A DNA stretch of 64,000 nt from Oscillatoriaceae cyanobacterium M7585_C2015_266. GTDB taxonomy: Bacteria > Cyanobacteriota > Cyanobacteriia > Cyanobacteriales > Oscillatoriaceae. The stretch covers positions 124,001-188,000 of the forward strand of contig DVEG01000005.1 of the NCBI GenBank assembly GCA_015295835.1. Reading direction: 5' to 3'. This document shows positions 524 through 56,110 of the stretch, piece by piece (within the stretch, counting starts at the first letter, position 1; each line of letters begins with the position of its first letter). The notes beneath the pieces were generated by a model that did no database searches, was not told where the DNA came from, and saw nothing but the letters and a program-made list of their open reading frames with translations. A program made the position numbers and the translations under genes.

Positions 524-1495
524 ATGACCTCAGCAATATCCCTCTTTTCCCCGGTTGAAGCAGATCTGCAGGTGTTAGCAGAGAACCTGAAAAAGCTGGT
601 GAGTGCCAAGCACCCCATACTGTACGCTGCGGCAGAACACCTATTTGGTGCCGCGGGAAAACGAGTGAGGCCAGCTATAGTCCTGCTGATTTCGCGGGCA
701 ACCATGCCAGATCGCGATATAACGCCCCGTCACCGAAGGCTGGCGGAAATTACAGAGATGATCCACACGGCAAGCTTAGTACACGACGATGTAGTGGACG
801 ATGCAGAAATCCGCCGAGGAATTGCCACAGTACATAGCTGTTTTGGCAACCGAGTAGCCGTATTGGCGGGCGATTTCTTGTTTGCTCAATCTTCCTGGTA
901 TTTGGCAAATTTAGATAATCTGGAAGTAGTCAAGCTTCTGTCAGAAGTGATTATGGATCTGGCAGAAGGAGAGATTCAACAAGGACTGAATCGATTTGAC
1001 AGCAGCTTGTCCTTACAAGCTTATTTACAGAAGAGCTACTATAAAACCGCCTCTTTGATTGCCAATAGTTGCAAAGCAGCAGGGATACTCAGCGAGGTAT
1101 CAGCAGAATTAGCTGCAGACTTGTACGGTTATGGGCGTCATTTGGGGCTGGCGTTCCAAGTTGTGGATGATATTTTGGACTTTACGGGATCTACAGAAGA
1201 GTTGGGCAAACCGGCGGGGTCGGACCTCAAAGGCGGTAATCTTACTGCACCGGTATTATATGCTTTGGAAGAAAAGCCTTATTTAGAGGTTTTGATCGAA
1301 AGGGAGTTTTCCCAAGAGGGAGATCTCGAACAGGCACTGGCTTTAATAGAAGAAAGTAAAGGGATCGAACGAGCGCGGGAATTGGCAGCAAACCACGCCC
1401 GCCAAGCAGTGGCTCACCTGCAGTCGCTGCCCCCTTCAGAGTCTCGTCAAGCGCTGATTGATTTGGCTGACTACGTTGTCAGCCGTATGTATTAG
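524..1495 (+). CDS. sds: Solanesyl (all-trans polyprenyl) diphosphate synthase
   Basis: Trans-prenyltransferase that extends an allylic diphosphate with isopentenyl diphosphate to make the long side chain, probably C45, of plastoquinone. The 323 residues are full length for the family. Both aspartate-rich metal-binding motifs are present: DDVVD at residues 88-92 and DDILD at 215-219, with the family GKRVRPA segment near residue 45. The ATG start at 524 gives the normal N-terminus. Final chain length cannot be read from sequence by eye; a shorter-chain product is possible. The gene stands alone on the plus strand, with a convergent unknown gene downstream. Confidence 0.9.
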   Translation: MTSAISLFSPVEADLQVLAENLKKLVSAKHPILYAAAEHLFGAAGKRVRPAIVLLISRATMPDRDITPRHRRLAEITEMIHTASLVHDDVVDDAEIRRGIATVHSCFGNRVAVLAGDFLFAQSSWYLANLDNLEVVKLLSEVIMDLAEGEIQQGLNRFDSSLSLQAYLQKSYYKTASLIANSCKAAGILSEVSAELAADLYGYGRHLGLAFQVVDDILDFTGSTEELGKPAGSDLKGGNLTAPVLYALEEKPYLEVLIEREFSQEGDLEQALALIEESKGIERARELAANHARQAVAHLQSLPPSESRQALIDLADYVVSRMY

Positions 1496-1581
1496 CTGGA
1501 GGCTGTCAGCTTTGAGCAGAAAGGCTGCTTACCTCAAAATATGGGAGGCGAAAATAGCTGACAGCTAAAATGGCTTTTCGC

Positions 1582-2067
1582 TCAGGCAATATCTGGGGGA
1601 AAGTTCTCTTTTGGCGATACAGGTACGATATATTGTTGCAGTTGGGACTGGATAAGATTTTGAACCTGTTCGCGCCGGACCTCAGTCCCTACTTGCATAT
1701 CGCCAGGGGTCTCGAAGAAAACCGTACTGTCGACGTTGTCGAGGGCTATCATTTGAAACAAAATGTGGGTGACAGGCACCGCCGAGGCAATGATTTGAGA
1801 ATTTCGGGGAGCAAAGGTTCCGGCAGCGGCGTCTTTGCGCGTGGGAAAAGCATAAATAACGCGTTTTTCGACCGTGGGTTGAGCGCGATTGCTCAAGATA
1901 GTAAGTACCCAATCGCGGTCGAGGGTTTGCAGAATGTAGTATTGCTTGTGGCGTAACTGACTGGCAAGTAGTTTTAGAGCGGGTGCGATCGCAGCCACAA
2001 TCTTCGGTGTGGTGCCATCTTGAGGGGCATTGTCAATTAGGGCTTGAATCTGTTGGTCTAAATCCAT
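1582..2067 (-). CDS. Conserved cyanobacterial protein of unknown function
   Basis: A 161-residue soluble protein with no signal peptide or membrane segment. It starts MDLDQQIQALIDNAP, then has a helical stretch and a mixed alpha/beta core (YILQTLDRDWVLTIL, RVIYAFPTRKDA). It looks like a conserved cyanobacterial hypothetical, but I cannot name a domain. It converges with sds and diverges from hetZ. An antisense frame of 128 codons on the plus strand is a shadow. Coding on this strand is supported by a sensible amino-acid composition and an ATG start facing the shared upstream region. Confidence 0.7.
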   Translation of the reverse strand: MDLDQQIQALIDNAPQDGTTPKIVAAIAPALKLLASQLRHKQYYILQTLDRDWVLTILSNRAQPTVEKRVIYAFPTRKDAAAGTFAPRNSQIIASAVPVTHILFQMIALDNVDSTVFFETPGDMQVGTEVRREQVQNLIQSQLQQYIVPVSPKENFPPDIA

Positions 2068-2155
2068 CTCAATTTTGAGGGACTCCTACACTTTGAGTGT
2101 AGCTGTCCCTGCACTCAGCTGCTTATAGAGTGTAGCGTGCCGTTGCGCGCGCCGC

Positions 2156-2188
2156 CACGAGCAGTAAGTGCAGTTTTACGTGCTCGTG
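2156..2188. promoter_or_regulatory. Inverted repeat in the hetZ upstream region
   Basis: Arms CACGAGCA (2156-2163) and TGCTCGTG (2181-2188) match perfectly. The inner bases GTAA and TTAC extend the pairing after a one-base bulge, leaving a loop of about 8 bases. It lies about 50 bases before the hetZ start, in the gap shared with the divergent unknown gene. No T-tract follows, so an operator or 5'-leader structure is more likely than a terminator. It does not resemble the published Anabaena HetR site. Confidence 0.35.
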
Positions 2189-2238
2189 CTGGGTTTTCCC
2201 CAGTAGTTAAAACTATCGAACGGGAGAGCTGCTAAGGC

Positions 2239-3378
2239 GTGGAAGCAATATTTCAGCTACTGTTTGTAGAACTCAAGCAGTCCACTCAGGCATCGGAGCG
2301 GAACTGCCAAGACGTTGCTAGACGAATCGCCGCAGAAGTAATCCGGATCTGCAACGAAAGTAAGCGGATTCAAGCGTCTGGAGAGGTAGAAGCTTGGGCA
2401 AAAACTTTAGCTCGACACCGCTTGCAGCAATGTCTTCATTATTACAAGCTCGGTTCGCGTCAGGGACGAATAGAATTGCACAGTACCCTCAGTGCTATTG
2501 TCTACCGTTACATTACCCCTACAGCCCAATCCAGCTATCAAGCACGACTAACTCTCATTGAAGATTTCCTGCAGGGATTTTATTTAGAAGCATTGAATGC
2601 TTTTCGTCGAGAAGCTCAATTACATCCAACGTTTAGTCCCAAGACTCTTTTAGAACTTGCAGAATATATGGCGTTTACTGAACGCTATGGAAAGCGACGC
2701 ATTCCTCTGCGCGGCAACCGTAGCCAACAACTAATAGTCTTACGCGCTCAAACCTTTTCTCAACAGCAACCCCCAGAAACAACTGTAGATATGGAAGAAG
2801 CTGCTGAAGGAGGCTCTGTAGATTCGGATCAGACTTGGAACGATACGTCGGTACAAGAAGTTCGGGAACGGATGGTTCTCGCCGAACCAGAAACTGTACT
2901 AGATGATCTGCGTCAAGAGGTTATTAAAGAATTAATGGCTTATTTAGAAGCAAACCAACAAAAAGATTGTGCTGATTATTTTGCCTTGCGTTTGCAAGAC
3001 TTGAATGCACAAGAAATCGAGGCGATTCTGGGGTTGACCCCCCGCAAGCGGGACTATTTGCAGCAGCGCTTCAAATACCATTTGATTCGATTTGCTCTCC
3101 GTCACCGTTGGGAACTTGTCCATCAGTGGTTGGAAGCAGATTTGGAAAACAATCTCGGTTTGACCCCCCAGCAGTGGCAAGAATTGAGAGTCAAAATAGG
3201 AGAAGGGCAGTTTGAATTGCTACGGTTGAAACAACAGGGACTGGCGGATGCAGCGATCGCCCAAGCGTTGGGCTGTACAGTCGCTCAGGTGCAAAAACGG
3301 TGGTTCAAGCTGCTCGAACAAGCCTGGGAAATTCGCAATCGTTTAGTATCCGGAGAGGGTTCATCTACCAATGAATAG
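2239..3378 (+). CDS. hetZ: HetZ-like developmental regulator
   Basis: 379 residues that I recognise as HetZ, the regulator acting with HetR early in heterocyst differentiation in Anabaena. Conserved HetZ blocks include the N-terminal AIFQLLFVELKQSTQASE, the central LLELAEYMAFTERYGKRRIP, and VDMEEAAEG. Residues about 215-375 carry two helix-turn-helix-like stretches (LNAQEIEAILGLTPRKRDYL and LADAAIAQALGCTVAQVQKRW), consistent with DNA binding. The start is GTG at 2239 with a GGGAGAG ribosome-binding site. The stop overlaps the next gene, patU, by 8 bases, so the two are translationally coupled. HetZ also occurs in filamentous cyanobacteria that make no heterocysts, where its job is unclear. 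Confidence 0.85.
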   Translation: MEAIFQLLFVELKQSTQASERNCQDVARRIAAEVIRICNESKRIQASGEVEAWAKTLARHRLQQCLHYYKLGSRQGRIELHSTLSAIVYRYITPTAQSSYQARLTLIEDFLQGFYLEALNAFRREAQLHPTFSPKTLLELAEYMAFTERYGKRRIPLRGNRSQQLIVLRAQTFSQQQPPETTVDMEEAAEGGSVDSDQTWNDTSVQEVRERMVLAEPETVLDDLRQEVIKELMAYLEANQQKDCADYFALRLQDLNAQEIEAILGLTPRKRDYLQQRFKYHLIRFALRHRWELVHQWLEADLENNLGLTPQQWQELRVKIGEGQFELLRLKQQGLADAAIAQALGCTVAQVQKRWFKLLEQAWEIRNRLVSGEGSSTNE

Positions 3379-4393
3379 CAACTCAGAAGCGCTACAAGAT
3401 TTGTTCGCTTGGCTTTTACAGGCTCCCCCAACAGATGCCTCTAATCCAGATGGAGAATCCTCCAGCCCGGGAAAAACTACAGGCAATGAGGGGATAGAAG
3501 ACCTGGAGTTGACTTACTCAGACCCCCTGGATTCGGAAGAGGTAAGCCGCCTATTTTCTAATTGCATTGCATCAGAAGGCATTCCCCTCGACGAACAAGG
3601 CGGTCAACAACTCAAATTGGGAGAAATACCTGCCGTGCAAGACCGTTTCTTCTCGCTGTTGAAGCGTCAACTGAAAACTGAAATCCAACGAACTCCACCA
3701 CTTTTTCCCTGGGAATCGGACGTCTTGGAGTATCCCGACTACTTAATCGAAGAACAGGTTCCCGAAAGGTTGTGGACTGCGCAGTTGCACAAACTCAATC
3801 TGCCAACGCGCCTTCCAGAAAATATCCTCACCCAACTCTTTGATCGCTGTGCCGAACTCGTAGATTCTGGACTGCGTGAAGGAGCAAAATTAGTCCGCGC
3901 TGTGGAGGCTCTGTTCCCAGATGATCTCCAGGCTCTTAATTACTGGGCAGATTTGGTACTCAGACCAGCTCCTCGCTCTCCTCGACCAGAAACCGATTTT
4001 CCTGAAGCTTATGAATCAGCTACCCCTACTCAACAAATGGTACTCTCGCTGATGGCGGCACGGGAAATTATCGGCAACCTAACTCTAAATGTTTCGCCCA
4101 GTCAGCACAAGCAGGAACGACAATGGCTGACTGCTGTTGGTATGCTAACGCTGGAAGTTGAGTACCGTCTGACTGAGCATTTCCCCAGCCTGCGCGTTGC
4201 AAGCCAGCTCCCCTGCGGCGGCAGCTTGGTGTTTCGCTGTGGTCAATCTCAAGCTACGGCGCAGCGTCCTGATCCAGGATATCTAAGTGTAGAGGTTTTC
4301 GATCCGCAACCGGGTCAGGTTTACTCCCTAGAAGTTCGTTTCCATAACCTGGATCAGAAACCTTTAATATTAGCGGTTTGCCCCACGAATTAG
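3371..4393 (+). CDS. patU: PatU-like protein
   Basis: 340 residues; identified as PatU from the N-terminal layout (SEALQDLFAWLLQAPP, then a low-complexity linker), the C-terminal half, and its position directly after hetZ. In Anabaena the gene is split into patU5 and patU3; here it is one open frame. Residues about 90-200 are a mixed helical region, and about 215-340 end in a beta-rich domain (SLVFRCGQ, YLSVEVFDPQPGQVYSLEV). PatU affects heterocyst pattern in Anabaena; the molecular activity is unknown. The ATG lies inside the end of hetZ, with an 8-base overlap. Confidence 0.75.
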   Translation: MNSNSEALQDLFAWLLQAPPTDASNPDGESSSPGKTTGNEGIEDLELTYSDPLDSEEVSRLFSNCIASEGIPLDEQGGQQLKLGEIPAVQDRFFSLLKRQLKTEIQRTPPLFPWESDVLEYPDYLIEEQVPERLWTAQLHKLNLPTRLPENILTQLFDRCAELVDSGLREGAKLVRAVEALFPDDLQALNYWADLVLRPAPRSPRPETDFPEAYESATPTQQMVLSLMAAREIIGNLTLNVSPSQHKQERQWLTAVGMLTLEVEYRLTEHFPSLRVASQLPCGGSLVFRCGQSQATAQRPDPGYLSVEVFDPQPGQVYSLEVRFHNLDQKPLILAVCPTN

Positions 4394-41627: not shown

Positions 41628-42212
41628 ATGAAAGTACTAGAAAATCGCAATTTTAAATTTCTATCTGCCTCTACTGTGGATGTAAAGAAATATACTTTCG
41701 GTAGCCGCGATTGGATTCCCGTACGTCAGGGTTTTTTGTGGAAAATCGAAAGAGGTGCTGTGCGAACTTTAACATGGAACCAACAAGGGACGCCAGTTAC
41801 TTTAGGATTATGGGGAGCTGGAGATGTGGTAGGAGCGCCCCTGACTAGAGTCGAGCCTTATAAAATTGAAAGCTTGACTCCAGTGGAACTCAATCTCGTA
41901 CCTTTCCAGCCCTGGGAAGAGCTGTTTTTTTCTCTGATTTCTTACGTGCAACAATCGGAAGAATTGATAAGGATTATTCGCAGCGATCGCGTTCCCATGC
42001 GCTTGCACCAGTTTTTAATTTGGCTAGCGGAGAAATTTGGCACTCCAGTAGAAATAGGGCGGCGGATTGATTTGCGGTTGACTCATCAAGATATTGCAGA
42101 ATTCATTGGTACGTCGCGGGTAACGGTGACGCGGCTGATCAAATTATTCGAGCGAGAAGGTGTGATTGTTAGAGCTAGGCGACATCTGATTTTGTTAGAT
42201 ACAATTATGTGA
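41628..42212 (+). CDS. Crp/Fnr family transcription regulator
   Basis: 194 residues. An N-terminal double-stranded beta-helix sensor domain (about 15-95) is shorter than in Crp and lacks the clear cAMP-binding cassette (RS...). The C-terminal winged helix (about 120-190) carries the recognition helix in HQDIAEFIGTSRVTVTRLIKLFE. It resembles cyanobacterial Crp-like activators and is probably not NtcA. ATG with AGGAG upstream; a strong terminator follows. Target genes cannot be told from the sequence; dps and the kinase gene are its neighbours. Confidence 0.85.
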   Translation: MKVLENRNFKFLSASTVDVKKYTFGSRDWIPVRQGFLWKIERGAVRTLTWNQQGTPVTLGLWGAGDVVGAPLTRVEPYKIESLTPVELNLVPFQPWEELFFSLISYVQQSEELIRIIRSDRVPMRLHQFLIWLAEKFGTPVEIGRRIDLRLTHQDIAEFIGTSRVTVTRLIKLFEREGVIVRARRHLILLDTIM

Positions 42213-42466: not shown

Positions 42467-44521
42467 ATGATTTACTGCCTCAACCCAAATTGCCACAATC
42501 CGCAGAACCCAACTGGCGCAAGGTTTTGCCAGACTTGTGGTTCTAAGCTGTGGTTAAAGAACCGATACCAGGCTATTAAACCAATTGGTGCCGGGAGTTT
42601 TGGCAGAACTTTTTTAGCAGAAGATCGCGATCGCCTAGGGGCTAAGTGCCTGATTAAGCAATTTTCTCCACCCCCTAGTATTTACACAAATCCTGAAAAA
42701 ATTATTAAGGCTACTGAACTGTTCGAGAGAGAAGCACAACAACTTCTGCAACTGGGAGAGCATCCACAAATTCCTACGCTCTATGCCTATTTTGAAGAAG
42801 ACAAGCAGCTATATCTGGTAGAAGAATTTATAGATGGAGAAGATTTAGGGCAAGATTTGGATAAAAGAAACGGAAAAAATCGTGGGAATGGGGAGGCAGA
42901 AATTCGCCATTTGTTGCAAAGTTTATTGCCCGTATTGCAATACATTCACTCACGCGGGGTAATTCACCGTGACATCAAGCCTGCTAATATCCTACGGCGC
43001 AGAAAACTTTTGTCTTTTCCAAGCGGTGCGAGGGCATGCCGGGCTTTATCGCCGGTACAAACAGGCGCAAAGGTTAAATTCGCTAGTTTTTTACCGGCAA
43101 GCGGGCAATTCTGGAGTAAGAGCCTTGCAGCAGAAACAGAAACAGAACTCGTATTGATTGATTTCGGAGTTTGCAAGCAACTAACAGGCTCCAATATTTC
43201 CGGAAAAGGATCGAGAGTTGGTACAGAAGGCTATGCGCCTCTAGAACAATGGCGTGGTGGCAAAGCTTACCCTGCAAGCGACATATACAGTTTGGGTGTA
43301 ACCTGCATTCAGCTGCTAGTGGGCACTTCCCTAGAAGAACTTTACGATCCTTTTGAGGGGCGGTGGGTGTGGCGCGCTCGCCTGCAGGCAGTTGGCAAAG
43401 ATGTCAGCCCTCAACTAGGTCAAATTTTAGACAAAATGATCAAAGATAGAGTTGGCGAGCGCTACCAAAAAGCAGAAGATGTTCTTAAAGATCTCAATTC
43501 AGGAACCCTTACCTTCAGCCGTCAACAACTAGCTACCAGTTTCAAGCTTCATATCCCATCCCCTCAACTTCTTTCACTCCCAACTACTAATGGGGCTCAA
43601 TGGCGCTGCGTGCAAACCCTAGTAGGTCACTTAGGTGAGGTGAATTCTCTCGCCATCAGCCCTGGTTCTCATATTCTCGCTTCTGGCAGTTGGGATAACA
43701 CAATCAAAGTGTGGCAACTTGCTAACGGCAAGCTAATTCACACTCTCAAGGGGCATTTGGGTTACGTCACTTCCATAGCTATTAGCCCAGATGGATATTT
43801 TTTGGCGAGCGGGAGTTGGGATAAAACTGTCAAAGTTTGGCACCTTGGCAGTGGGCGGTTGCTTCACACCCTCAAAGGGCATTCAGGTTATGTCAATTCA
43901 GTTGCCATCAGCCCCAATGGCGAAATTTTGGTGAGCGGGAGTTGGGATAAAACTATAAAAATTTGGCATATTGAAAGCGGCGAACTCCTAGGTACTCTTG
44001 TCACCCCCGATTGCGTTCGTTCGCTGGCTATTAGCCCCGATGGCAAAACTCTGGTTTCTGGCAGCGATGATCGCACAGTTAGAGTCTGGCAGCTTGACGC
44101 GGGCGCGTTACCGGATTCTCCTTTGTACTCTCTCAGTGGACATTCCCATTGTGTGCGCTCTGTCGCTATTAGTTCTGATGGTAAACTGCTGGCTTCTGGG
44201 AGTTGGGATAGCACGATTAAACTTTGGCGTCTTGATAAGAGCGGGCGGGTGAGCGCCTCTCCTACAGATACCCTCACCGGGCATTCTTGTTACGTTTACT
44301 CTGTCGCCTTCAGCCCTGACAGAAAGCTACTTGCTTCTGGCAGTCGCGACAGCACTATCAAACTTTGGCATCTTGACGCCTGCAATTCGCAACCCATTGC
44401 GCCTATGCAAACTCTGACGGCACATAGTGGTCCTGTTTATTCTGTTGCTTTTAGCCCTGATAGTCGGATTCTTGTTTCTGGTAGCGATGACGCTACTATT
44501 AAAGTTTGGCGTTGCGATTGA
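42467..44521 (+). CDS. Ser/Thr protein kinase with WD40 propeller and an insert in the kinase core
   Basis: 684 residues. A zinc-ribbon-like N-terminus (CLNPNCHNPQNP...CQTCG, residues 4-24) leads into a Hanks-type kinase (about 33-350): glycine loop GAGSFG (41-46), lysine K64, HRDIKPAN (167-174) and DFG (232-234). HRD and DFG are about 65 residues apart, against the usual 20 or so; the extra segment (about 179-224, SFPSGARACRALSP...) is basic and serine-rich. After a linker come seven WD40 repeats (about 385-684) that form a beta-propeller. This kinase-WD40 fusion is typical of filamentous cyanobacteria and probably acts in protein-interaction-based signalling. Confidence 0.88.
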   Translation: MIYCLNPNCHNPQNPTGARFCQTCGSKLWLKNRYQAIKPIGAGSFGRTFLAEDRDRLGAKCLIKQFSPPPSIYTNPEKIIKATELFEREAQQLLQLGEHPQIPTLYAYFEEDKQLYLVEEFIDGEDLGQDLDKRNGKNRGNGEAEIRHLLQSLLPVLQYIHSRGVIHRDIKPANILRRRKLLSFPSGARACRALSPVQTGAKVKFASFLPASGQFWSKSLAAETETELVLIDFGVCKQLTGSNISGKGSRVGTEGYAPLEQWRGGKAYPASDIYSLGVTCIQLLVGTSLEELYDPFEGRWVWRARLQAVGKDVSPQLGQILDKMIKDRVGERYQKAEDVLKDLNSGTLTFSRQQLATSFKLHIPSPQLLSLPTTNGAQWRCVQTLVGHLGEVNSLAISPGSHILASGSWDNTIKVWQLANGKLIHTLKGHLGYVTSIAISPDGYFLASGSWDKTVKVWHLGSGRLLHTLKGHSGYVNSVAISPNGEILVSGSWDKTIKIWHIESGELLGTLVTPDCVRSLAISPDGKTLVSGSDDRTVRVWQLDAGALPDSPLYSLSGHSHCVRSVAISSDGKLLASGSWDSTIKLWRLDKSGRVSASPTDTLTGHSCYVYSVAFSPDRKLLASGSRDSTIKLWHLDACNSQPIAPMQTLTAHSGPVYSVAFSPDSRILVSGSDDATIKVWRCD

Positions 44522-44948: not shown

Positions 44949-45815
44949 GTGAAACTAGCAGTTTACGGAAAAGGCGGAATCGGCAAATCCACAACCAGTT
45001 GCAACATTTCCGTTGCCCTCGCGCGTCGCGGCAAAAAAGTCCTGCAAATCGGCTGCGATCCAAAACACGACAGCACCTTTACCCTTACAGGCTTTCTAAT
45101 TCCCACCATAATCGACACCTTGCAAGCAAAAAACTACCATTACGAAGATGTCTGGCCAGAAGATGTCATTTATAAAGGTTATGGCGGAGTTGATTGCGTC
45201 GAAGCGGGAGGCCCTCCTGCCGGTGCAGGCTGCGGGGGTTACGTAGTCGGCGAAACAGTGAAACTGCTGAAAGAACTCAACGCCTTCGACGAATACGACA
45301 TAATTCTTTTTGACGTACTAGGTGACGTCGTCTGCGGCGGTTTTGCAGCCCCCCTCAACTATGCTGATTACTGCATAATCGTCACCGATAACGGATTCGA
45401 CGCTTTATTTGCCGCCAACCGAATTGCTGCCTCTGTACGCGAAAAAGCCCGCACCCACCCGCTGCGTCTTGCCGGGCTAATCGGCAACCGCACCTCTAAA
45501 CGAGATTTGATCGACAAATACGTCGAATTAGTGCCCATGCCGGTACTAGAAGTCTTGCCACTAATCGAAGATATTCGCGTGTCTAGGGTTAAAGGTAAAA
45601 CCCTGTTTGAAATGGCGGAAACTGACCCCTCTCTCAACTATATCTGCGACTACTACCTGAATATCGCTGATCAAATCCTAGCTCGTCCCGAAGGAGTCGT
45701 GCCCAATGACGCCCGCGATCGCGAATTATTCTCCCTACTCTCCGACTTCTACCTCAATCCTACTCAAGTTAAGCTCAACAGCGAAGAAGAAGAACTTGAG
45801 CTGATGATGGTGTAG
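44949..45815 (+). CDS. chlL: Light-independent protochlorophyllide reductase, ATP-binding subunit L
   Basis: NifH-like homodimer that passes electrons, with ATP hydrolysis, to the ChlN-ChlB core in dark chlorophyll synthesis. 288 residues; P-loop GKGGIGKST (8-16) and the two [4Fe-4S] cysteines C95 (GAGCGGY) and C129 (VVCGG). GTG start with AAGGAG. It is the first gene of chlL-DUF5331-chlN; chlB is not in the window. The enzyme is oxygen-sensitive and works mainly in the dark or in low oxygen. Confidence 0.97.
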
Positions 45816-53893: not shown

Positions 53894-56110
53894 ATGCTAG
53901 CTCACCAAAATAAACCCCGTTTATCAGATGCTGTCAGGGGTGGAGAATCTTCCCCCCTGGTTGTGTTGGGGGGAATAGAGGGGTTGAAAATGCGACTAAA
54001 CAATGAGTCATTAAACGTAAAAATAGCGGCCCTCAAAGATGCCAGTAAGTATGGCAGAGAAGGCTTGCAGCTGCTGAGCGAGATTTTTCAAAGAGAAACA
54101 GGGATGCTCAAGTGGGTAGCCTACAGCCTGCTGAAACAAAGTGCAACTAATACAGAAAAAAAAGAGGAGCAAAAATATTTTTTTAAAAGCACTTTACCGG
54201 AATTAACTGTGCGGGGAATGGTGCGACAAATAGGGCGTGGTAAAATAAGAAATTTAAGTTTATTAAATGAAGAGTTGTTAATAGCATGTGCTAGTGGTAG
54301 CACAGTTATTTTTAATATTATAAATGGGGAAGTACTTTGGGAAATAGACTGCCCTGCGTGGAGTTTTGCTCTCAGTCTGGATAGAAATTTGCTAGCCTTG
54401 GGCAGTACAAAAGCAATTTATTTGTGGGATTTGCGAGCGGGGCAGCTCAGCAGACAATTGCTTGGACATAGTGGGGAAGTAACGAGCGTCGCCTTCAGTT
54501 TTGACGGAAGATTAATAGCATCGGGCAGCAATGATAAAACGGCTAGAATTTGGGATGCGATCGCGGGCACAGAATTGCGGGTGCTTGCTCACTGCTATGC
54601 CGTAACTTGTCTTGCATTTACTCCCAACAGCCATCTTTTAGCATCGGGAAGTATCGACGGGAAAGTGCGATTGTGGGATATCTATACCGGTACTGAAGTC
54701 AAAAATTTTTCTAACTGTCTGGCTTACCCGTTTATAGAATACCGGGAAATTCCAGCTTCTTATTCTCACCAAGAAGTGCAGCAAATGCTAGAACCAAAAA
54801 ACCCCGTAACCAGCCTAGCTTTTTCTCCAGATGGGAAAATACTAGCATCGGGAAATAGCGATAAAACAATTAATTTATGGGATCTAAAAAACGGTGGTAA
54901 ATTGCGACAACTTTCCCATGGGGATGCAGTCAAAAGTATTGCTTTTTCTCCCGACGGGCATTTACTAGCATCAGGAAGTGGGGATAAAAAAGTTCGCCTG
55001 TGGGATATAGAAACCGGAGAAGAAGTGCTAAAAATGAATGCACATTCAGATTCAGTAATAAGCGTTGCTTTTTCTCCCGATGGCAAACTGCTAGCATCAG
55101 CAAGCGATTATTTCACTATAATGCTGTGGGAGATACCGTCTGGAAAAGAACTGCAAAAATTAGTAAGTTACAGCTACCCGTCGCGGAGTATGGCTTTTAG
55201 TCCAAATGGTGAAACTCTGGCATTGGGAAGTTGGGATAAGCTCATACATTTGTTAGATATTAAAACAGGAAAAAAAATAAAACAGTTGCATGGGCATGCG
55301 GCTTATATAAATAGCATTGCCTTCAGCTTTGATGGCGAGTTATTGGCATCGGGAAGCGAAGATAAAACGGTGCTACTGTGGGAGGTAGCAACGGGGAAAC
55401 AACTGCAAAAATTGAGCGGGCATACAGGTGAAGTTACGAGCGTTGCTTTCAGCCCAGATTGCCAGTTAATTGCATCCAGCAGTCGCGATCGCACAGCCCG
55501 GTTATGGGAAGTAGCGAGTGGTAGAGAAATAGGGCAATTACTTGGGCATAAATATGCAGTCAACAGCCTCGCCTTTTCTCCAGACGGAAAGTTAATTGTA
55601 TCGGGAAGCGAAGATGGTACAATTCGGTTGTGGGAAGTAGCTACGAGAAAAGAACTGCGGCAATTGCTAGCAAATCGAACTGTTAAAAGTGTTGCCATCT
55701 CTGCAGATGGAAAATTAATCGGCTCCGGGGGGGAGAGCGTGGTGCAATTATGGGAGGTGGAAACAGGGAGACAAATGCGAGAATTAGGGAGACTTAGTTA
55801 TTCGGTAAATAGCGTTGTTTTTAGTAGCGCTCGCCAATTAATCGCCGCAGCTACTCGCGACAATATATTATATCTTTGGGATGCGACATCAGACATGGAG
55901 CTCCTGCAATTGCCCGGATATGGAAGCAGGAGCTACAGCGTGGCTTTTTCACCCGACAGTAAATTTATGGCACTGGCTAGTACAGATGGCGTAATACGAT
56001 TGTGGCAAATTCCTTCTAGGAAGACAGTAAATTTTGCCGGAGATGTTGCGGATGGATTTAATGGAAACAGATTTTTGCAGCGAGTTTTGAAATGGCAAAA
56101 TACGGATTAA
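53894..56110 (+). CDS. WD40-repeat protein with N-terminal HEAT-like segment
   Basis: 738 residues. Residues about 25-85 (GIEGLKMRLNNESLNVKIAALKDASKYG) are the HEAT-like segment that starts many cyanobacterial WD40 and GUN4-type proteins. From about 130 to the end come roughly a dozen WD40 repeats (VAFSPDGKLLASGSEDKTV-type units), enough for two propellers. No enzyme domain is present, so it is a scaffold. ATG with GAGGG. It ends only 3 bases before cbiA, so the two are probably co-transcribed. Confidence 0.85.
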   Translation: MLAHQNKPRLSDAVRGGESSPLVVLGGIEGLKMRLNNESLNVKIAALKDASKYGREGLQLLSEIFQRETGMLKWVAYSLLKQSATNTEKKEEQKYFFKSTLPELTVRGMVRQIGRGKIRNLSLLNEELLIACASGSTVIFNIINGEVLWEIDCPAWSFALSLDRNLLALGSTKAIYLWDLRAGQLSRQLLGHSGEVTSVAFSFDGRLIASGSNDKTARIWDAIAGTELRVLAHCYAVTCLAFTPNSHLLASGSIDGKVRLWDIYTGTEVKNFSNCLAYPFIEYREIPASYSHQEVQQMLEPKNPVTSLAFSPDGKILASGNSDKTINLWDLKNGGKLRQLSHGDAVKSIAFSPDGHLLASGSGDKKVRLWDIETGEEVLKMNAHSDSVISVAFSPDGKLLASASDYFTIMLWEIPSGKELQKLVSYSYPSRSMAFSPNGETLALGSWDKLIHLLDIKTGKKIKQLHGHAAYINSIAFSFDGELLASGSEDKTVLLWEVATGKQLQKLSGHTGEVTSVAFSPDCQLIASSSRDRTARLWEVASGREIGQLLGHKYAVNSLAFSPDGKLIVSGSEDGTIRLWEVATRKELRQLLANRTVKSVAISADGKLIGSGGESVVQLWEVETGRQMRELGRLSYSVNSVVFSSARQLIAAATRDNILYLWDATSDMELLQLPGYGSRSYSVAFSPDSKFMALASTDGVIRLWQIPSRKTVNFAGDVADGFNGNRFLQRVLKWQNTD

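Follow-up and report, generated by a model that had tools for sequence, protein, structure and literature searches.

The kinase gene and its insert

The window, i.e. the whole stretch of 64,000 nucleotides analysed here, carries a gene encoding a Hanks-type Ser/Thr kinase, flanked on one side by a Crp-like regulator and on the other by a putative chlL gene. The features of the locus are the following.

41628-42212: Crp-like regulator, on the other flank of the kinase
42467..44521, + strand: Ser/Thr (Hanks-type) kinase of 684 aa with an N-terminal four-Cys motif and C-terminal WD40 repeats (PF00069, PF00400, four-Cys pattern)
42965..42988, + strand: HRDIKPAN catalytic loop, residues 167-174 (sequence)
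42989..43000, + strand: predicted strand beta7, ILRR, residues 175-178 (sequence and AlphaFold model)
43001..43144, + strand: insert within the beta7-beta8 turn (48 codons against 3 in L009/L010; residues 190-224 predicted as coil, pLDDT below 50)
43145..43168, + strand: ELVLIDFG, residues 227-234, predicted strand beta8 (E228-230 in the model) and DFG motif (sequence and AlphaFold model)
44949..45815, + strand: putative chlL (NifH/frxC family), downstream neighbour of the kinase (Pfam match; same order in the relative G003, L152)

In Pfam searches PF00069 covers residues 34-334 of the kinase (E 8e-31) and PF00400 (WD40) is found in seven stretches C-terminal to the kinase domain. A kinase domain with its catalytic residues, followed by WD40 repeats, places the protein on sequence grounds among the Hanks-type kinases with WD40 domains; among proteins of solved structure, the one closest to it in sequence is the bacterial kinase StkP. 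All the catalytic motifs (GAGSFG, KCLIKQF, HRD, N174, DFG and APLEQ) are present, and E89, H167, D169, K171, N174, D232, G234, E260 and D272 are invariant in an alignment of 28 rows, so that the catalytic residues are intact, as an initial annotation of this DNA had stated. The name chlL for 44949-45815 is our reading of the Pfam match and of the cyanobacterial setting. Elsewhere in the window, another protein, of 702 aa and encoded at 53894-55999 (+), matches the WD40 part of kinases from the relatives.

Cyanobacterial Hanks-type Ser/Thr kinases with an additional WD40 domain are known from a 2007 survey (PMC2176072). As far as the accessible part of that survey goes, the window kinase resembles them in its catalytic motifs, which include the HrDikPxN form, and in its WD40 C-terminus, but it differs from them in 45 additional residues between subdomains VIb and VII; the same part of the text mentions domain insertion and shuffling, and no such loop was found in it.

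HRDIKPAN (residues 167-174) and DFG (residues 232-234, nt 43160-43168) lie exactly where the initial annotation had placed them, and the linker between them is 57 aa long, against 12-13 aa in close relatives free of the insert, which leaves a surplus of about 45 aa. In L009 and L010, the full-length insert-free kinases, the linker is 12 aa and the site reads ILRRHNGELVLIDFG; compared with these the window kinase has 45 aa more, and the inserted stretch (about nt 43001-43144) comprises 48 codons where they have three: RKLLSFPSGARACRALSPVQTGAKVKFASFLPASGQFWSKSLAAETET. The insertion falls exactly in the beta7-beta8 turn (ILRR^...^ELVLIDFG), its reading frame is open and in frame with the gene, and its GC content is 0.49 versus 0.47 for the gene. 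The description of this segment as about 45 residues too long, basic and resembling an element inserted in frame is borne out relative to the close relatives, the basic character being mild: the first 46 residues hold 7 K/R versus 1 acidic residue, together with 7 Ser.

A structure predicted by AlphaFold2 from 28 aligned sequences reached a mean pLDDT of 85.2 and a pTM of 0.84, and it supersedes a prediction from only 4 sequences with a pLDDT of 55. In the later model pLDDT falls below 50 at residues 190-224, and also at 242-245, and residues 179-226 are assigned no secondary structure, being flanked by beta7 (175-178) and beta8 (228-230). Most of the surplus is, in this prediction, coil modelled with low confidence on a kinase core of high confidence, and the loop is probably disordered. 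In the kinase fold the beta7-beta8 turn faces away from both the ATP and the substrate sites.

The beta7-beta8 turn in related kinases

The kinase was searched for in 40 genomes, its own and 39 relatives, all of the relatives belonging to other genera. In a tree built without the loop, it groups with L009 and L010 (linker 12) and with L101 of the relative G003 (linker 21), with support 100/94; next to these, with weaker support, stands L032 of Phormidium sp. LEGE 05292, with a linker of 13. L101 adjoins chlL upstream as the window kinase does (L152) and is on this ground taken as its syntenic orthologue; the kinase-chlL order is common to the window and G003, and the two chlL genes are 92% identical. 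Within the 10 kb fetched around L009 and L010, the closest full-length kinases, no chlL match was found (L151, L153). Had the segment been present in all homologues, it would be a normal loop of the subfamily, as the initial annotation pointed out; the alignment shows that it is not common to them, and this explanation falls away.

Loci for a wider survey (30 taken automatically and 60 chosen) were fetched out of all the places listed by the kinase search. The resulting set of 110 kinases omits those cut short or with motifs that the pattern did not recognise, e.g. L106 (linker 27), and one of its linkers was set by hand to 56, where the pattern had stopped early; the loop-free tree comprises 107 kinases, three distant rows (L033-L035) being excluded. 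Over the 110 kinases the linker is 12 aa long in 17, 13 in 65 and of another length in 28 (14, 15, 16, 18, 19, 21-25, 27, 31, 33, 37, 39, 40, 56, 57 and 59), and it exceeds 13 by at least 10 aa in 16. Among the 107 related kinases the linker measures 12 or 13 aa in 80, and a single kinase, with 59, exceeds the 57 of the window kinase. A linker of at least 18 at the HRD-DFG site is found in 24 of the 107, which is no unbiased frequency, because the kinases surveyed were mostly found as matches of the window kinase. The own genome yields 42 matches to the kinase domain, some of which are parts of a single gene; 31 of its loci were taken and 25 entered the linker counts, and 3 of these 25 recognised kinases have a linker of at least 18. 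Long linkers occur in 24/96 kinases with the four-Cys motif versus 0/11 of those without it, so that a restriction to the former is not significant (Fisher p 0.12).

Across the 110 aligned kinase domains, inserted residues are more numerous in the beta7-beta8 turn than at any other position. Of the 14 positions listed, two adjacent columns of this turn have 13 and 3 inserts of at least 10 aa, and two other places have one each. By parsimony on the 107-kinase tree the 24 long-linker rows require at least 17 changes, 15 of them forced by well-supported branches; the count does not separate gains from losses, and since the short form is the commoner one, repeated gain is the simpler reading. The long-linker label is also clustered on the tree, partly through near-copies: shuffled labels need 21.9 changes on average and none of 500 shuffles is as low as 17.

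Where closely related kinases can be compared, the loop changes quickly. In genus g2, L006 and L125, which belong to a group of three rows with support 100/99, have linkers of 40 and 24 aa and loops that are dissimilar (differences at 12 of 16 aligned residues), and their cores differ in 23 of 274 residues (8%); in genus g5, L004 has a linker of 59 and L005 one of 39, with 19/274 differences between the cores. In four pairs of equal length, loops differ at 13/78 residues and cores at 79/1095, i.e. the loop changes about 2.3 times faster, a rate that derives from few, short loops, stretches so short that dN/dS is unreliable.

Source of the inserted DNA

The DNA of the insert has one place only in its own genome (98.48% complete), the 14 other matches at E<=10 spanning 14-24 bp each; there is no match at E<=0.001 in the 39 relatives among the matches listed, and scans of the window for patterns of the insert, allowing as many as 3 mismatches, return the gene itself only. 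The suggestion, made together with the first description of the segment, that a small repeat was recently inserted here is not supported for the window insert, because no second copy is found. Neither strand of the insert folds better than shuffled sequences (z -1.02 on the + and -0.77 on the - strand), and it is not predicted to form the strong RNA or palindromic fold of a palindromic element. It contains an imperfect 11-nt inverted repeat (43051-43061 and 43088-43098), and in a direct-repeat scan of 42900-43250 no listed pair brackets it.

A protein origin was sought with Pfam for the frame of the gene and for two other open frames, and nothing credible was obtained, the best match being zf-LSD1, whose 12.6 bits (E 0.13) stay below the cut-off of 20.2. 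A search with the insert peptide gives matches at E<=10 in 23 of the 40 genomes, the self-match counted, the best of the others having an E of 0.009. Four of these matches were realigned. One, L228 in G001, extends over 34 residues at 44% identity, with an E of 3e-6 calculated against that 3-kb locus alone; it is taken as a chance match because its DNA occurs just once in each genus g2 genome (in two parts in G006) and is absent from the genome of the window by DNA search, and because a stop was counted inside. The other three, two of which represent one locus type, also have stops inside and were rejected.

At the same site of a relative the source of extra sequence can be recognised. In L006, a genus g2 kinase, the insert holds two repeated segments (query 73-114 and 16-46). 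Its matches, with self and orthologue counted, number at least 51 in G001, at least 49 in G006, at least 20 in G004 and 3 in G003; the first segment provides the bulk of these matches and the second at least 10 rows, and neither has a match in the genome of the window. No repeat copies were found for the inserts of L003 (second kinase), L004 and, among the matches listed, L087, for which the three matches obtained in G004 and G006 fall nearly entirely within the part of the kinase that follows the loop (the loop being query 18-104). Capture of a repeat at the beta7-beta8 turn is shown for one orthologous group of the five tested.

Small mobile repeats of cyanobacteria were reportedly treated by Elhai in 2008. 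The coding gene of L006 acquired short repetitive DNA, like genes in Rickettsia, for which the accessible part of the literature describes in-frame capture of short mobile repeats, namely palindromic elements and other MITEs (PMC10969869); unlike these elements, the window insert has no further copies among the matches listed. In the genus g2 genomes, GC-rich palindromic dispersed repeats lie within kinase coding sequence at L006:2009-2124 and in L007.

In a comparison of loops, from which pairs without the window loop that scored under 22 were skipped, short C/G-rich stretches are common to some loops of different clades: 18 pairs are involved, and 0/200 shuffles, which did not preserve runs, are as good. 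Beyond these 18 there are 5 orthologous pairs. The shared stretches may indicate that more loops derive from repeats, or may merely be common C/G runs.

Interpretation of the loop

The reading that we favour, with a probability of about 0.72, is that the insert is a tolerated, lineage-specific, in-frame addition at the beta7-beta8 turn, a recurrent insertion hot spot of this cyanobacterial kinase subfamily. Since this turn faces away from the ATP and substrate sites, DNA landing there in frame would leave the kinase working; in some lineages the inserted DNA would come from small dispersed repeats, and the loop would afterwards drift fast until its origin is unreadable, as in the window gene.

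A functional regulatory or docking element at this place has a precedent in eukaryotes: according to the accessible part of a study of these kinases (PMC2667211), the CLK beta7/8 hairpin covers the alphaD-alphaE groove and blocks a docking site, and SRPK1 carries an insert of about 250 residues there. The insert of the window kinase lies likewise between beta7 and beta8, its mildly basic character and its seven Ser would suit such a role, and because the CLK and SRPK inserts occupy the same place a function of the window loop is possible, though unsupported. The CLK hairpin, as that text describes it, is ordered (with a partly disordered tip) and has positions that are conserved across the CLK family; in contrast, loops of the window type vary in length and sequence between relatives, here of other genera, they can differ completely within one genus, and no fold is predicted for residues 179-226. 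Moreover, the best similarity of the window loop to any of the 23 other long loops is equalled by 12 of 200 shuffles, i.e. it is at chance level, and the regulation by the insert that had been suggested from the sequence finds no support in it. We consider a functional element of this kind unlikely, and a tolerated hot spot with fast turnover, rather than a conserved regulatory element, most likely.

Alternatively, a small mobile repeat of the own genome could have inserted here recently, comparable to the Rickettsia palindromic elements or to cyanobacterial small dispersed repeats; the repeat segments of L006 at the same site and the inverted repeat inside the insert agree with this, but the results on copies, folding and bracketing repeats reported above largely refute it for intact copies, and it appears quite improbable. 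That the subfamily had a long loop from the start, which most members then shortened, is very improbable: the change counts fit loss as well as gain, and some loops of different clades share stretches, but the short form is spread over the tree, no long alignable loops were seen in its deep branches, and the shared stretches are short C/G runs, which include the dispersed repeat of L006 and which the shuffles broke. In viral-contig kinases, a rough outgroup of which 27 of 73 loci were read and 25 had the motif, linkers are moreover 11-16 aa long in 25/25.

Under the hot-spot reading, this is the one turn of the kinase fold at which a large family of bacterial kinases puts up with additional sequence, or makes use of it, and dispersed repeats are one source that can be demonstrated. 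A comparison of orthologues that have a loop with those that lack one provides a natural test of what the inserts do. The window insert is one case of this recurrent site and by itself otherwise unremarkable. A bolder proposal, which we hold to be unlikely, is that the turn is a standing acceptor, capturing selfish or random DNA in frame again and again and giving private, fast-changing loops that maybe rewire partner binding, and so a repeat-driven diversification of kinases. In the titles and abstract openings of the papers listed by literature searches no beta7-beta8 hot spot of bacterial kinases was found, which is no proof of its absence.

At L003 two four-Cys kinases are adjacent (184-1437 and 1462-3462), and their beta7-beta8 linkers, of 31 and 56 aa, are both long but different. 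In L068 of the own genome (C23:311259-312062), a kinase whose linker is 21 aa long, DFS replaces DFG; the accessible part of the cyanobacterial survey reports a Gly-to-Ser change in 30 kinases of family III (PMC2176072).
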